Below are positions 371-7,553 of a DNA stretch of 42,563 nucleotides, piece after piece. Under the pieces are notes generated by a model. It was not told where the DNA came from. It saw only the letters and a program-made list of their open reading frames with translations, and searched no databases. How positions within the stretch are numbered: the stretch's first letter is position 1; each line of letters begins with the position of its first letter. A program made the position numbers and the translations under genes. This stretch comes from Bacteroidota bacterium (lineage in GTDB: Bacteria > Bacteroidota > Bacteroidia > Chitinophagales > Saprospiraceae). The DNA lies in contig JAHEAR010000006.1 of the NCBI GenBank assembly GCA_024642665.1, positions 107,559 through 150,121 on the forward strand. The letters are read 5' to 3'.

Positions 371-1918
371 TCAGGCAGTTTTATTATGGCTCATACGATA
401 ATCGATCATCGAGAGAATATCTTCCACATAGATGCGCTCATTGCAAAGTCTGGGGATCTTGGCCTGACTGCCGGTTTTGCCTTTTTTGTGTAGCCACTTT
501 CTGAAGGTGCCTTTTGGCAGGACGGTGAGTTTTAATGGATTTAAGGCCATACTCAAAAAGCGTTTGGCTTCATAATCGCTGTTGAGTTGCTGGAGATGAT
601 CATCAAGCTTTTCTGCAAAGGCACTGATGTCTCCGGGAGCGTGATCAAACTCGATCAACCAGTGGTGGCCACCTCGACCATTCAGGGTCATATGAATAGG
701 AGCTACTGTATAATCTGTGACCATAGCGCCAAACTCTTTTGAGGTGAGTTCTATCGCCCGATCGGTATTATCGACCATTACTTCTTCGCCGAAGGTGTTG
801 ATATACTGTTGTGTTCGTCCGGTGATACAAATGCGATATGGTTCCTTTGAGGTAAACACCACCGTATCACCAATCTTATAGCGCCACAACCCTCCATTGG
901 TGGTGATGACCATGGCATAAGGTGTGCCGATTTCTACCTCCTGTAGTGAGATGGCTTCAGGGTTTGGTGAGTGCCATTGACCTTCCGGGATAAACTCATA
1001 AAAGATTCCGGTATCGGGGAAAATCAGGAGGCCTTCCTTTCGATCATTTGTATCCTGGGAGGCGAAATAGCCTTCAGAGGCATTATAAATTTCGTGATAG
1101 GCAAAATCATTCTTTGGAAACATCTCTTTAAACTGTTCCTGGTAGGGACCGAAGCCTACGCCCCCGTGCATATAGATGGATGCGTTGGGCCAGACTTCCT
1201 CCATATTTTGGGCACCGGTCATCTCAAGAATCCTTCGAAATAATACAAGGGTCCAGGTGGGGACACCGGCTATCACACCAACATTCTTTCGGCTGCAATT
1301 GCGAGCCATGATTTCTATTTTTTTATCCCATTCCGGAATCAGCGAAGTCGCATAGTCCGGCGTGAAAAAAGGACGTCCAATCCAGGGTAGATGGTGGTAC
1401 ATGATCGCCGAAACATCACCGTACCGTATATCGGGGTGCGTGGTTTTTGAAATACTTCCGGTCATCACCAGATTCTGATCGGCAAAGGCGCGAACTTCAG
1501 GATTACGATGGTAAAGCAAGGCGAGGGTGTACCATCCTGATCGGGCATGGGTGTGATTGAGGTGTTCGGTAGACACCGGAATAAACTTACTCTTATCGGC
1601 GGTGGTGCCGGAGGACTTGGCAAACCAAGTGACCAGTCCGGGCCAAAGGATATTAGTTTCACCGGCCATCATGCGTTTGATCTGGCCATTGATATCATCA
1701 TAGCACCGTATTGGTACCTGACGGGTAAAATCTTTGTAATTTTTGATGGAAGGGAAGCCAAACTCCTTTCCTACTTCTGTTCGTTTGGCTTTATAGACCA
1801 AAGACCGAAGCAGTTTATCCTGCAGGACATGAATCCGCTTTTCCCTATACTGCAATCGGGCGTACAGATAGGAAAGGTAATATGATACAGACGAGTTAAA
1901 CAGGCTTCTAGGTCTCAT
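371..1918 (-). CDS. GH3-type acyl-adenylating / amido-synthetase family protein
   Basis: This 515-residue protein has the layout of the GH3 family, whose plant members adenylate carboxylic acids such as auxin or jasmonate and join them to amino acids. The ANL-fold signatures are visible in order: an SSGTT phosphate-binding loop at residues 102-106 followed by a lysine-rich stretch, YNASEGYF at 278-285, and the hinge-like WRYKIGDTVVF at 345-355. Length matches bacterial members (about 500 residues). There is no signal peptide, so it should be cytosolic. The bacterial substrate is not known to me and the acyl acceptor cannot be read from sequence. It is the first gene of a two-gene unit with the small protein at 47-361. 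The start is the ATG at 1918, which leaves about 110 noncoding bases upstream. Confidence 0.9.
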   Translation of the reverse strand: MRPRSLFNSSVSYYLSYLYARLQYREKRIHVLQDKLLRSLVYKAKRTEVGKEFGFPSIKNYKDFTRQVPIRCYDDINGQIKRMMAGETNILWPGLVTWFAKSSGTTADKSKFIPVSTEHLNHTHARSGWYTLALLYHRNPEVRAFADQNLVMTGSISKTTHPDIRYGDVSAIMYHHLPWIGRPFFTPDYATSLIPEWDKKIEIMARNCSRKNVGVIAGVPTWTLVLFRRILEMTGAQNMEEVWPNASIYMHGGVGFGPYQEQFKEMFPKNDFAYHEIYNASEGYFASQDTNDRKEGLLIFPDTGIFYEFIPEGQWHSPNPEAISLQEVEIGTPYAMVITTNGGLWRYKIGDTVVFTSKEPYRICITGRTQQYINTFGEEVMVDNTDRAIELTSKEFGAMVTDYTVAPIHMTLNGRGGHHWLIEFDHAPGDISAFAEKLDDHLQQLNSDYEAKRFLSMALNPLKLTVLPKGTFRKWLHKKGKTGSQAKIPRLCNERIYVEDILSMIDYRMSHNKTA

Positions 1919-2030: not shown

Positions 2031-3527
2031 TTAGAGTGCGCGCATCATTATATCCCACAGCACTTCAAAAGGGATCATCTCCACTTCGATGTTTTCACCG
2101 GATCCGGCCAGAGTGATGGTCCCTAATTGTTCGCGCAGATCTTTGGTATAGCGCTCTGTTCGGATGGGATTAAAGTCTGCTTTGGTCATCTGAATGACCA
2201 TCTTGATCATGCAGTTGCTTCTGAACGAGTCGTCTTTTCGAAGATATCGATAGGCATATTGATTGAGTGAATCAATGCGGTCGATGATAAGATTGTATTC
2301 TTTTCTTTGCAGTAAAAAGGCGATATGCATCAGGTGTATGCTCACATTGATTCCTCTCTTGTCCTTACTAAAAACCGGCACTGTATTTAGAAACTTTCCA
2401 AGCTTAAATTCAGGAAGTTTGTCTCGAAGGTCATCTGGGTTTCCGGCCATACCTGATTCGACAACGAGATGAATGTAACCTAGTGTCGCAAAGAATACTT
2501 CTTTAAAATTATCACCTATGCCATCAAACCTTGGATGACTGATCATTTCTGAAATTAAATCTATTGCTTCTAAATAATTACCTGCATAGAGTTGACCTTT
2601 AAGAGTATAATGGGCTAACACGTACCAATTTAAAGTGCCTGAAACAAGTAAACCTAGTCTTTTCTTACCTAGTTTCACTGCATCTTCTGGACGTCCTGCC
2701 TGAATAAAAGCCCAAGCTCTTCTATTTGTAATACTTGCTAATGCAATTCCAGTTTTGAAGTCAGGTGCACTAAATTCTTCTAATGCTTTTTCTGATAATG
2801 AAAGAAGGCCATCAAAATCCCTTTGATATTCATAATTTGCGGCCAGCACTCGATACCGATTATAGTTGAAAAAATATGTTCTAATACCCTTTACCTTAGC
2901 TAGTTCCTCTGCATAGGCTTGAGCTTTTGCCTTAAACTCTTCACTAGGATTTGCCAAAGACTGTAATTGGGCACGTTGTAGCTCGTAGTAATAATTTTCA
3001 GCTTTAATTTCCCAATTATAAATGTCCATAAACTTCTTTTGAATATTCAAATACTTAGTTAATTTGTATTTATTTAATTCAGTTGAAGAATAATATCCTA
3101 CTAACTGATGGACTTGAGTAAGAACATTTTCAGTTGCATGATACTTGATTGATCTTGTAATTGACTTTTCAGCTAACTCAACAGCTAACTTACCAGATTT
3201 CCTTGCAATTAATATTCTAGATACAAGTGATTGCCGATATCCACTTAAGGCTTCATTTACTCTTGCGTCAGCTGTTTCTGTATTTATATTCTGCATAATT
3301 ATTACCCGAATATATAGCTCCCTCAATCGGGTTTTCAATCTTGAGAAGGCTGTAAGGTTTTTCTTTCCATAAATTTCAAGCATGCATTCATCATCGCTTA
3401 AAACTCTTTCTGAAAGAACTATTGAGGATAACCTTCTAATAGGACTTTTATCATTCTGAGAGATCAATGTTTCTATTACTTTTTTATGCCTAATATTCAA
3501 TTTGGCTAACTCGTAAAGTGTTTTCAT
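2031..3527 (-). CDS. All-helical TPR-like hypothetical protein (498 aa)
   Basis: No enzyme motif is visible. The protein seems almost entirely alpha-helical from about residue 100 on, with TPR-like spacing of aromatic and alanine residues (for example EYQRDFDGLLSLSEKALEEF, RAWAFIQAGRPEDAVKLGKK, LYAGNYLEAIDLISEMI). The first 95 residues form a distinct basic module (SPIRRLSSIVL, then IYGKKNLTAFSRLKTRLREL) that could bind nucleic acid or a partner. No signal peptide. Bases 2550-3527 are clearly richer in A+T than the last 500 bases of the gene and than the neighbours, which suggests acquired or fast-evolving DNA. Divergently placed, 213 bases away, is a gene for a small exported peptide (3741-3965). 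Regulator plus peptide is one reading; I cannot prove it. Confidence 0.8.
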   Translation of the reverse strand: MKTLYELAKLNIRHKKVIETLISQNDKSPIRRLSSIVLSERVLSDDECMLEIYGKKNLTAFSRLKTRLRELYIRVIIMQNINTETADARVNEALSGYRQSLVSRILIARKSGKLAVELAEKSITRSIKYHATENVLTQVHQLVGYYSSTELNKYKLTKYLNIQKKFMDIYNWEIKAENYYYELQRAQLQSLANPSEEFKAKAQAYAEELAKVKGIRTYFFNYNRYRVLAANYEYQRDFDGLLSLSEKALEEFSAPDFKTGIALASITNRRAWAFIQAGRPEDAVKLGKKRLGLLVSGTLNWYVLAHYTLKGQLYAGNYLEAIDLISEMISHPRFDGIGDNFKEVFFATLGYIHLVVESGMAGNPDDLRDKLPEFKLGKFLNTVPVFSKDKRGINVSIHLMHIAFLLQRKEYNLIIDRIDSLNQYAYRYLRKDDSFRSNCMIKMVIQMTKADFNPIRTERYTKDLREQLGTITLAGSGENIEVEMIPFEVLWDIMMRAL

Positions 3528-3740
3528 GATCTCATAGTATTAAGTAACTTACAATCAGTAAATTACAACAAATAAAATACTTTTTCTTTAAAAAATGGAT
3601 GTAAATTTTAACTGTCCGTGTGATTTGCTTTTGTCTGATTCTAGATGGAATTTTGAGAAGTACATTAGAAAGATTGAATGACTAATCTAACTGATTAACA
3701 AAATGCTTACCTACATCATTAACTCATAAAGAAAAAAAAT

Positions 3741-3965
3741 ATGAAAAATGCATTATCTGCCTCCGTTCTACTTCCTATTGTAGCTCTAATTATTTCGACA
3801 TTTCTATCAACCTTTTTTGAGCCTTCATTAAATAAAGCTCGCCCAAACACTGAAATCTTATTTATTAATAGAGAAAACTACCTATTACCAGCTTCTTGCA
3901 TGCCAGATACTTATTTAGCTGACAGATATGTTCAGCCAAAAAGTTTTGTTTCTAATATTAATTAA
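3741..3965 (+). CDS. Small peptide with N-terminal signal or membrane segment (74 aa)
   Basis: The reading frame starts MKNALSASVLLPIVALIIS, a short basic end followed by about 20 hydrophobic residues. That is typical of a signal peptide or a single membrane anchor and unlikely to arise by chance in such AT-rich DNA. The remaining 45 residues are polar, with one cysteine (PASCMPD), and end in VQPKSFVSNIN. No lipobox and no double-glycine leader are seen. The ATG follows an A-rich run (GAAAAAAAAT), as is usual for Bacteroidota starts. It is transcribed divergently from the helical-repeat gene at 2031-3527. Function is unknown; a secreted signalling or toxic peptide is possible, and a chance reading frame cannot be excluded. 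Confidence 0.5.
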   Translation: MKNALSASVLLPIVALIISTFLSTFFEPSLNKARPNTEILFINRENYLLPASCMPDTYLADRYVQPKSFVSNIN

Positions 3966-4206
3966 TATGATGAAAACCAAGCCAAAATCACTTGAATAAA
4001 TCCATATTTTATAACACTCCAAATTACTTTATTAGAAAATTCAGGGCAACACTTCATTAATGTTGATTAAATATTCACGATTAATTTCAAAAGAAGTATA
4101 ATATGGAGACGGATTTCATTTGATTTTTTCGAACAGCTTAATTCTTAGTTGCCTATTTATCAACATCTTAAATATAAGTTATTACACTTCACTGATACTT
4201 TCCACG

Positions 4207-4263
4207 TGTAAAGATGTCTTGTTTTTTTATTTCATTTAGTACGGAAGACCCCACATCTTTACA
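4207..4263. other. Perfect 11-base inverted repeat with 35-base loop
   Basis: TGTAAAGATGT at 4207-4217 is the exact reverse complement of ACATCTTTACA at 4253-4263. Inside the loop, AAGAC at 4245-4249 can alternatively pair with GTCTT at 4216-4220, so two exclusive structures are possible. It lies between the two small reading frames. It could be a structured leader, a small RNA or a protein site. Confidence 0.45.
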
Positions 4264-4325
4264 ATGTTAAAAGGGCTTATTACTTTTTCATAGTAATAAC
4301 ACATACAATTGATTGATTATCAGGC

Positions 4326-4532
4326 ATGAAAAGTCATGCTTGGCATTATTCTACCGACATTATTAACGTAAAATCCATATGGGTTTTGTTAAATGAAAGA
4401 GTTAGAATCCTCAGTAGATTTGTATTGTTAAAAATTCAAACTAAACAATATCAATTATCTAATATGGATGCTTTCCAAATTTTACTTTGTCTGTTAGGAA
4501 TTCTTGGTGGTGACGATTTTGATCCAGCCTAG
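4326..4532 (+). CDS. Possible small peptide ending in GILGGDDFDPA
   Basis: An open frame of 68 codons, or of 22 codons if translation begins at the internal ATG at 4464 (giving MDAFQILLCLLGILGGDDFDPA-like content: a hydrophobic stretch, a GG pair, then six mostly acidic residues). The short version resembles a hydrophobic leader with a double-glycine cleavage site before a tiny acidic peptide. Support is contextual: a hairpin at 4545-4569 and an intrinsic terminator at 4614-4671 follow on the same strand. The longer N-terminus (MKSHAWHYSTDIINVKS) looks non-genic, and its ATG lies within a hairpin. No homologue is recognised. Confidence is low. Confidence 0.3.
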   Translation: MKSHAWHYSTDIINVKSIWVLLNERVRILSRFVLLKIQTKQYQLSNMDAFQILLCLLGILGGDDFDPA

Positions 4533-4544
4533 TTGAAATAAATC

Positions 4545-4569
4545 AATGTTCACAAGTTTTGTGAATATT
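4545..4569 (+). other. Hairpin just after the small peptide frame
   Basis: AATGTTCACAA at 4545-4555 pairs with TTGTGAATATT at 4559-4569 (11 pairs including one G-U) around a 3-base loop, 12 bases after the stop at 4532. There is no clean T-run, so it may be an RNA-stabilising stem rather than a terminator. Confidence 0.4.
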
Positions 4570-4613
4570 TATATATAAAGAATCATTAGTTCTTTTTTGG
4601 GTGTTATGCAATG

Positions 4614-4671
4614 ACCACCTGCTTCTCTTTGCGAGGACGATCTTCTGGCAAACAGTAGGTGGTTTTTTTTT
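4614..4671 (+). terminator. Plus-strand intrinsic terminator with nested stem
   Basis: ACCACCT at 4614-4620 pairs with AGGTGGT at 4657-4663. Within it TTTGC (4628-4632) pairs with GCAAA (4648-4652). Nine T bases follow (4663-4671). The T-run is on the plus strand, so it ends transcription coming from the AT-rich stretch, not uvrA (minus strand). That plus-strand transcript has no large gene, which supports the small peptides or a small RNA. Confidence 0.7.
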
Positions 4672-4691
4672 GACTTTAGAGATTATCTTAA

Positions 4692-7553
4692 TTATAACTC
4701 CTGCTTTAGAAAAGCGCCTGTGTGGCTGGAGGGGTGGCCAGCAACAGATTCAGGAGTACCCGAACACACTATGGAACCACCCTCTTTTCCTCCGTTCAAT
4801 CCCACATCAATAATATAATCAGCGACTTTAATGACATCCATGTGATGCTCAATCACAATGGCTGTATTTCCCCTGTCTACCAGGCTCTGAATGACATGCA
4901 GCAAGTAGCGAATGTCCTCAAAATGAAGTCCCGTCGTAGGTTCGTCGAGGATATAAAGTGTCTGTCCTGTATCTTTTTTTGCTAATTCCTCCGCCAGCTT
5001 CACACGCTGTGCCTCTCCTCCTGATAAAGTGGTGGCCTGCTGCCCCAACGTAATATACCCAAGGCCCACCTCCTGTAAGGTTCTGAGCTTTCGATAGATC
5101 GCCGGTATGTTTTCAAAGAATTCAACGCCCTGCTCGACCGTCATCTCCAGCACATCATTGATCGACTTGGCCTTGTAATGTACCTCGAGCGTCTCGCGAT
5201 TGTACCGCTTACCCATACAAGTCTCACAATCTACCAGCACATCCGGCAGAAAATTCATCTCAATCACACGCCTTCCGGATCCATGACAAGTCTCACATCG
5301 TCCTCCTTTGACATTAAAAGAAAAACGTCCCGGTTTATAACCCCTTATTTTGGCTTCCGGCACATTTGCAAACAAACTCCTGATATCTGTAAATACACCT
5401 GTATACGTGGCAGGATTGGATCTGGGAGTCCGACCAATCGGAGACTGATCCACTTCAATCACTTTGTCTATATGCTCGATCCCCTTTATACTATCATACG
5501 GCAAAGGCCTTTCAAGACTATTGTGCATCGCCTGACGTAAAATAGGATATAAGGTTTCATTGATCAGTGATGATTTCCCACTACCGGAAACCCCAGTCAC
5601 ACAAATAAATGTGCCCAATGGGATTTCGACAGTGACATTTTTGAGGTTATGACCGGTAGCCCCCCTGAGCACAATCTTTTTTCCATTTCCCTTACGTCGT
5701 TCCTCCGGTACTTCTATTTTCCGCTCTCCGGTGAGATATTGTGCGGTCAATCCTTTCGTTTTTAATACTTCTTTCGGCGTTCCACTGGCTACCAGCTCCC
5801 CTCCATGCACACCGGCTCCGGGCCCCAGATCAATCAGATAATCTGCCGCCAGCATGATATCTTTATCGTGCTCCACAACCAATACAGAATTGCCGATCGC
5901 ACTTAATTCTCTGAGGGACTTGATCAATAACTGATTATCCCTCTGATGAAGACCGATCGAAGGCTCGTCCAGGATATAAGTAATTCCGGTAAGTTGCGAA
6001 CCAATCTGAGTGGCCAGCCTTGTTCGCTGAGTCTCTCCCCCTGACATGGTTCTCGAGGGGCGGTTAAGCTGCAGGTAATGCAATCCAACGGTCACCAGAA
6101 AACCCAGGCGATCCCGGATCTCCTTTATGACATCCCTGCCAATAGCCTTTTGTTTTTCTGTCAATCGGGATTCCAAACCGGTAAACCAGGTCAACAAATC
6201 ACCAAGATCAATATTCGCCAGCTGACCAATATGCTGCCCATCAATTTTAAAAAATCTGGATTCCTTTTTAATTCGATACCCTTCACACTCCGGGCATTCA
6301 GAAATCGTCATAAAGCTTTCAGCCCATTGTCTGAGCTTTTCACTGGTTGTTGTTTCATACCAGCGTTTAAGCATATTGACAATTCCTTCAGATCCCAAAT
6401 CAAAAATCAAGTCATGTGGAAGATAATCCGGTGCAGTGGTTGTTCCCGGTTTTCCCCCATGAAGGATAATCGCTAAAGCCTCCGGATCAATATCCTTAAC
6501 AGGTGTGGCGAACGTAAATTTATACTTCTTTGAAATCTGACGCAGCTGCTTGAAGGTATGGTTGTCCCGAACCTCACCAAATGGGACGATTCCGACCTCA
6601 TTAATTGAGCGGGTATCCTCCGGAATGACCTTATCCATATCCACCATGGTCACTTCACCCAAACCATTACAAGTCGGACAAGCCCCATATGGCGAATTGA
6701 AAGAAAAAGAATTGGGCGATGGTTCTTCATACGATATTCCCGAGACCGAACACATCAGGTGCCTTGAATACATTTTGGGGGTTTCCTCCCCTGCTTTTAA
6801 GACCATCAGCATGCCTTCGCCCATGCGCAACGCTGACGAAAGACTACTTGTGATTCGCGCAGTTTTTTCAGGCTGTTTGACCGTCAGCCGATCGACAATC
6901 AATTCAATATCATGTGTCTTATAACGGTCTGCCTGCATTTTCGGACTGAGGTCCAGAATTTCTCCATCGACGCGCACCTTTGTGTAGCCTTGTTTGCGCA
7001 GTTGATCAAACAATTCCCGATAGTGTCCTTTTCGCCCTCGGACTACCGGTGCAAGGATTAATATCTTCTCATTATCGAAATCAGTCAGTACATTTTCGTG
7101 GATCTGCTCCTCTGTATACTGGACCATCTTATCACCGGTGACGTAGGAATATGCTTCTCCGGCACGGGCATACAGCAGTCTTAGAAAGTCATAGATTTCT
7201 GTAATGGTTCCAACGGTAGATCTTGGATTCCAGCCGGATGTTTTTTGTTCAATGCTGATCACCGGGCTCAGCCCATCGATCTTTTCGACATCCGGTCTTT
7301 CGATGCCTCCAAGAAATTGTCTGGCATAGGCTGAGAATGTTTCCAGATAGCGTCGCTGTCCTTCTGCATAAATCGTATCGAAAGCTAAAGAAGATTTTCC
7401 GCTACCACTGATTCCTGTGATCACCACTAGTTTTTCACGGGGAATCTTCAGGTCGATGCCTTTGAGATTGTGCTCGCTGGCACCGATAATCTCTATCATA
7501 TCCTCCTGATCATCAGTATTTATGGGGGTGTTATTTTTCTCTGGCCTGGCCAT
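4692..7553 (-). CDS. uvrA: Excinuclease ABC subunit A (UvrA)
   Basis: UvrA is the damage-recognition ATPase of nucleotide excision repair and loads UvrB on damaged DNA. At 953 residues it is full length. Visible features: first Walker [10 protein letters not shown] at 47-55, a zinc site beginning [10 protein letters not shown] in the first half, the ABC signature [12 protein letters not shown], Walker [14 protein letters not shown], then the second half with Walker [11 protein letters not shown], the CETCHGSG and [10 protein letters not shown] zinc-finger pairs, [15 protein letters not shown] and [15 protein letters not shown]. The start at 7553 gives an 18-residue extension before [15 protein letters not shown]; a start at 7499 is possible, but the upstream promoter (7573-7603) fits the longer form. 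It stands alone and has no visible minus-strand terminator. Confidence 0.98.

Follow-up and report, generated by a model that had tools for sequence, protein, structure and literature searches.

The 42,563-nucleotide stretch of DNA analysed here (the window), from a Saprospiraceae member of the Bacteroidota, encodes a TPR-type receptor candidate of 498 residues (2031..3527, minus strand) and, divergently, a 22-residue signal-precursor candidate, MDAFQILLCLLGILGGDDFDPA (4464..4532 with the stop included, plus strand). We lean towards the view that the two form a peptide-signalling cassette of peptide signal and TPR receptor, which would work like Rgg/SHP while matching no named family. The plus-strand gene would give a 22-residue precursor whose hydrophobic N-terminal part directs export or processing and whose acidic C-terminal tail, approximately DDFDPA (4512..4529, plus strand), would be the mature signal, a proposal that builds on the family's shared C-terminal motif. 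The minus-strand gene would encode a cytoplasmic receptor in which an HTH-like domain at the N-terminus is followed by a TPR superhelix, the groove of which would bind the imported tail and so switch DNA binding. This binding would probably take place at the shared AT-rich intergenic region (3528..4463, G+C 0.28), the putative site of regulation, and the receptor would therefore control its own peptide gene. We infer export, processing, re-import, binding, DNA binding and target genes; the computations themselves yield gene pairing, signatures of selection and translation, a common precursor layout, lineage-specific C-termini, a TPR fold class and divergence of the cassette. For the family as a whole, we see about an even chance of a native Bacteroidota peptide-pheromone system with its own receptor family, exchangeable pherotype-like cassettes, several paralogous channels per genome, and precursors whose format changes (hydrophobic, repeat or double-glycine) while the acidic C-terminal signal stays of one kind. 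If this holds, signalling in a large environmental phylum follows a code that is readable from sequence: many of the receptors have a candidate signal beside them, and since such a peptide can be made synthetically and supplied to cultures, the idea is open to direct testing.

The 498-residue frame has a GH3-domain gene (371-1918, minus strand) on one side and uvrA (4692-7553, minus strand) on the other, both assigned with Pfam. The original prediction had described the segment as AT-rich, and its G+C content is indeed 0.32 over 2250-4573 vs 0.46-0.47 in the two flanking genes. The 22-residue frame is nested in a 68-residue frame and starts 936 bp from the receptor start. Beyond its stop lies a conserved 3' element with a small hairpin, AAAGAATCATTAGTTCTTT (4577..4595, plus strand), which is predicted to fold and is conserved in a congeneric genome (G001; the window's genome is G000), followed by a terminator-like hairpin and nine T (4614..4671, plus strand). 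The latter agrees with the plus-strand terminator that had been proposed: it is evident in the sequence, is predicted to fold, and is conserved in G001 (99% identity over 102 bp) and in L031, another locus of the family (87%). It is unlisted by a simple terminator scan, which considers loops of 3-8 only.

The 498-residue protein belongs to an unnamed Bacteroidota family of helical-repeat proteins, many of them slightly above 500 residues; it reaches no curated cut-off. Pfam TPR_12 matches the window's protein with an E-value of 0.0036, the best TPR model among the 90 members reaches 2.1e-4, and the profile built from the family hits a consensus TPR chain (3.4e-8) and chains of kinesin light chain. 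The model of the full protein, built from a two-row alignment, is poor (mean pLDDT 58.7), with a more confident helical repeat at residues ~110-290. Its matches to kinesin light chain, LGN, RapH, NprR-NprX, PlcR-PapR and phage Rap are tied at Z ~12-15, a level which the tool itself warns is common for helical repeats, and RNPP receptors are not set apart from other TPR proteins. Residues 1-110 modelled alone have a mean pLDDT of 71.7, and the 15 structures nearest to them are DNA-binding or HTH-domain chains, at Z-scores of only 3.9-5.4; the HTH-like candidate is the N-terminal helical module at residues 1-84 (3276..3527, minus strand). Foldseek returned nothing at E < 0.001 for the full model or for residues 1-110, and none of the 90 members matches an HTH family of Pfam. 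An HTH plus TPR architecture is plausible on these models. The TPR-like protein of the original prediction is upheld by the open frame and by the N-terminal helical module and helical-repeat body of the model, which places it, at low confidence, in the helical-repeat TPR fold class.

Matches to this protein occur in 38 of the 60 genomes of the nearest set, the window's own included, at 1-12 per genome with fragments counted. A profile search that scored up to three candidates per genome, run on a phylum-wide sample of 395 genomes, found matches in 36, the weakest solely over short TPR-like stretches; within one distant family, the figure is 15 of 23. The working set was 130 rows of at least 400 residues, which represent 128 distinct genes.

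The original prediction had named as the partner a 74-residue ORF with a signal-like N-terminus (3741..3965, plus strand). Two close orthologues of the receptor decide between this and the 22-residue frame: L002, from G001 of the same genus (56% identity, flanked by uvrA and GH3), and L031, from a Saprospiraceae MAG (58%, with GH3 on one side and the contig end at the 3' element on the other). The 22-residue frame is kept in both, as MEAIDLLLCLLGIIGGDDFDN and MEAIQIVLCLLGIIGDDFEGL, and its differences by codon position in the three comparisons are (6, 1, 10), (6, 2, 13) and (6, 1, 15) over 20-21 codons. Its dN/dS is 0.16 between the window and L002, with synonymous sites saturated in the other two comparisons. 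Judged by this codon pattern, the frame is under purifying selection and is the conserved partner of the TPR-like ORF. Such selection is non-uniform across the family, with a dN/dS of 0.49 and differences of (4, 6, 5) for L017 vs L040 and a dN/dS of 0.45 for one family pair. No counterpart of the 74-residue ORF was seen in L002, its local match to a 67-residue ORF in L031 extends no further than residue 19 (a score reached in 9 of 1000 segment shuffles), and among the divergent ORFs of the 130 rows no further one is near either. With no counterpart seen in L002 and only 19 residues matched in L031, the 74-residue ORF was rejected as the partner. The idea that a TPR protein and a small peptide gene go together thus stands, with its main partner wrongly named, and the very short hydrophobic frame that had been listed second is the part conserved between species.

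Within the family, short ORFs of a common layout face receptors of 20-30% identity. Their N-terminus is hydrophobic and frequently has LG or FG around residues 8-15; a linker that varies comes next, and the C-terminus carries an acidic motif such as DLDEF, DLDGI or IDRxED. Examples are MDLITEILILLGLINEDLDGI (L018), MELLLWLLGIIAEDGDF (L025), MAILIALLLSLGIISSPEDATPEVIATYEVITLDLDEF (L010) and, in one family, M(E/D)L...FG...IDRxED. A rule written after the peptides had been seen asks for an ORF of 15-95 residues within 900 bp, with a hydrophobic 9-mer close to its start and a net acidic charge over its last eight residues. It selects a divergent ORF in 40 of the 122 distinct members that have 600 bp or more of upstream sequence, compared with 9/122 on the other strand, 3/112 and 6/112 downstream, and 5.7/124 expected from dinucleotide shuffles. 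The remaining 82 of 122 have no ORF by this post hoc rule, and the window and L031 are also outside the 40, their peptides starting 936 and 1407 bp away. Selection on the N-terminus alone gave 76 divergent ORFs, of which 54% had an acidic tail, vs 20% of 46, 12% of 26, 19% of 32 and 17% of 1043 in four controls. An N-terminal PSSM trained on 17 peptides (score of at least 10) was positive at 15/40 training and 6/54 held-out loci; the corresponding controls were 0 and 0 on the other strand, 1/34 and 0/51 downstream on the same strand, 0 and 0 downstream on the opposite strand, and 7/800 and 8/1080 in shuffles. An earlier first rule gave 25/94 and 6/18 divergently, 5 and 1 on the other strand, 1 and 4 of 85 and 0 and 0 of 17 downstream, and 3.4 and 0.5 expected from shuffles, and a looser rule over 1500 bp matched 57/130 rows. 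By eye, 49/130 rows were accepted, with precursors of 17-90 residues and a gene spacing of median 303 bp (range 113-1407); eight were dropped for appearance (L004, L023, L044, L049, L055, L059, L080 and L109, of which L059 returns below as a double-glycine case), and the ORF of L117 was re-chosen by hand.

The pairing of the family with short peptide genes therefore holds well beyond the window, far above controls. As for whether homologues keep adjacent, conserved frames, on which the original prediction had staked its claim, the result favours the 22-residue frame and goes against the 74-residue one, and most homologues are without a peptide by the rule. Over 48 loci, receptor similarity correlates more strongly with C-terminal peptide similarity (Mantel r 0.43, 0/2000 permutations as high) than with N-terminal peptide similarity (r 0.23, 1/2000 permutations). 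The correlation with the C-terminus fits joint inheritance of receptor and signal, and shared ancestry alone would also be able to produce it.

A usual Sec signal has basic residues before its hydrophobic stretch; the window's precursor has none ahead of its own. Upstream of 41 rule matches, A is found at -13 in 80%, at -12 in 66%, at -6 in 56% and at -3 in 49%, compared with 22-40% at the same positions in divergent non-acidic, other-strand and downstream ORFs; the window's 22-residue ORF has A only at -3. In Flavobacterium johnsoniae, A at -3, -6, -12 and -13 favours initiation, according to the ribosome profiling and reporter results in the excerpted text of PMC6847099. With these Bacteroidota-type start contexts, the rule-positive peptide ORFs look translated.

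Several features make the peptides look like processed precursors. Nine peptides of one family, a comparison that leaves out the more distant L119, average 52% pairwise identity over residues 1-13 and 82% over the final six, with 8-10% in the stretch between. Peptide genes occur as tandem pairs at L107 and L135, and a small divergent ORF at L095, starting 447 bp from the TPR start, repeats IVDPTGGN seven times, the units differing by synonymous codons. At L059 and L072 (G016) and L008 (G014), a leader ending in KGG, without a hydrophobic N-terminus, is followed by the tails TSDTSSTTSILGVDMDVM, TNDANTTTSIVGIDIDAV and LVVTDVLAF; similar double-glycine precursors are found, both in G014, at L048 (downstream of the receptor) and L050 (958 bp upstream). 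The double-glycine pattern appears divergently in 5/130 rows, three of them accepted (L008, L059 and L072), and in 5/390 control stretches, one of them counted as real (L048, downstream), so that this putative class shows no enrichment and is proposed from the look of its sequences. C39 exporter domains are encoded in both double-glycine genomes, and likewise in 31/60 genomes searched; none was found in G000 or G001. Leader models applied to 10 peptides gave none above cut-off, L050 scoring 13.8 bits vs the class I lanthipeptide cut-off of 22.

The locus differs between the two congeneric genomes. UvrA is 91.7% and GH3 88.5% identical between G000 and G001, vs 56.3% for the TPR protein. By blastn and tblastn, both flanks match around a differing segment (2170..4573) that holds receptor, spacer and peptide: the match on the GH3 side reaches into the TPR gene at its 3' end and stops at 2169, and that on the uvrA side begins at 4574, just beyond the peptide stop. 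G001 also has an orphan C-terminal TPR piece (residues 454-498, 91% identity) beside GH3 (L032:1779-9113, G001:C124), and an ORF resembling type I restriction-modification genes (HSDR_N_2 and N6_Mtase) lies within the ~7 kb that separate it from the intact TPR gene. The divergent receptor and peptide between conserved flanks, together with the orphan piece, suggest that the cassette has been replaced, as pherotypes are; other histories could have given the same arrangement.

The 3' element (4574-4675) is 99% identical over 102 bp in G001, which is high beside the 79% of the whole uvrA-side match. Among 40 genomes searched it is full-length only in G000 and G001, with 20-26 bp matches in G021; it is also present at L031. 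Given these few genomes and the absence of any Rfam match at the gathering score, it was rejected as an RNA of its own and is read as a conserved stretch of flank with a terminator, immediately beyond the divergent cassette.

Bacillota and their phages are known to communicate by peptides through cytoplasmic TPR receptors. The original prediction held that no such system is well known in Bacteroidota, and in keeping with this, a search of open-licence PubMed Central literature gave no description of one. The closest likeness is to Rgg/SHP groups I and II of streptococci, which, according to PMC13361665, have divergent receptor and short peptide genes, a hydrophobic precursor, a D- or E-led C-terminal signal and a TPR-type receptor with a DNA-binding N-terminus. 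The divergent order with a short peptide is present in the window and its relatives, and the DNA-binding N-terminus is a prediction here. The Bacteroidota family differs in phylum and in having an outer membrane, in its wider gene spacing, in precursors that are often acidic at the start and have variable linkers (up to 90 residues in all), and in having no known exporter or target. No Rgg family model matches the 90 members (NCBIfam E up to 0.1, Pfam E up to 0.01). The simplest account would be a peptide signal and its TPR receptor that work like Rgg/SHP. By sequence, the family stands outside that group.

RRNPP systems in general (Rap, NprR, PlcR, PrgX and AimR) offer a broader comparison. 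As given in part of PMC10075063, a survey of complete Firmicutes and virus genomes, they have a TPR-fold receptor of 250-500 residues (TPR HMM E < 1e-5) beside a precursor of 10-100 residues, secreted via Sec, or PptAB for SHP, with the two genes direct neighbours that lie -50 to 191 bp apart in validated systems; intragenic signal repeats occur there too. The 498-residue receptor and 22-residue precursor, like the 17-90 residues in the 49 loci, are within these lengths, whereas the spacing, here and in the median of those loci, is outside that range. On TPRs the picture is mixed: the Pfam TPR matches are below the HMM threshold, and the family profile and the model both point to a TPR fold. 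C39-exported double-glycine peptides, as described in extracts of PMC6363468, resemble the five precursors with GG-ending leaders, whose two genomes both encode C39 domains, but the window's genome has no C39 domain and the GG of its peptide follows a hydrophobic stretch.

The same features can be read in other ways. The peptide could remain in the cell, as a micropeptide that binds the TPR protein or the membrane as an autoregulatory cofactor; N-termini that are often ME or MD without a basic residue, the short hydrophobic stretch and the lack of C39 exporters in the window's genome would suit this. We hold it to be a doubtful possibility, as the divergent linker and conserved C-terminus of the precursors, the tandem repeats of L095 and the five double-glycine leaders point to processing and export. 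Those leaders, with the sub-threshold lanthipeptide score of L050, would suit the precursor of a bacteriocin or RiPP, an antimicrobial or modified product that the TPR protein controls or gives protection against. This is unlikely: modification or transport genes do not recur among the 25 families listed for each of the sets of 57 upstream and 54 downstream neighbours, the tails are short and acidic, and the C-termini are conserved where a diversifying core would be expected.

It is very improbable that the short hydrophobic ORF and structured 3' region represent a type I-like peptide toxin controlled by the TPR protein or by RNA, given that conservation extends beyond the hydrophobic part to the C-terminus, that precursors reach 90 residues and include repeat and double-glycine forms, and that no antisense RNA was identified. 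Still more improbable is a housekeeping TPR family beside which the short ORFs lie by chance. The members without a peptide by rule and a clade of 21 with 1/19 testable members positive speak for it; enrichment over four controls, codon selection, start contexts and common tails beside such dissimilar receptors speak against it. Several findings count against the signalling cassette that we prefer: the 82/122 members without a peptide by the post hoc rule, the 936 bp spacing, one of four upstream adenines, no basic residues before the hydrophobic stretch, no conserved target gene, no C39 in the genome, a weak HTH match, and RNPP receptors that do not stand out.

The window's genome encodes one oligopeptide-binding protein (PF00496), which is compatible with peptide import but generic. 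Among viral contigs and phages there is no relative or match, and plasmids yielded one distant copy (L159, Hymenobacter sp. BRD128, 2869-4401), beside a tyrosine recombinase and with no convincing divergent peptide. Among the 25 families listed per set for 57 upstream and 54 downstream neighbours (the L033-L099 subset), the sole recurrent one is cytidylate kinase, downstream in 10/54. The clade of 21 rows is nearly without peptides (1/19 testable members by rule vs 39/103 elsewhere), and cytidylate kinase was found in 7/8 downstream neighbours tested from it; TPR proteins of this clade, upstream of cytidylate kinase (L067, L069, L075, L077, L078, L081 and L082), may have a different role. In some cases, two or three TPR paralogues lie close together on one contig (L033, L038, L039, L040 and L084), some with their own, differing peptides.
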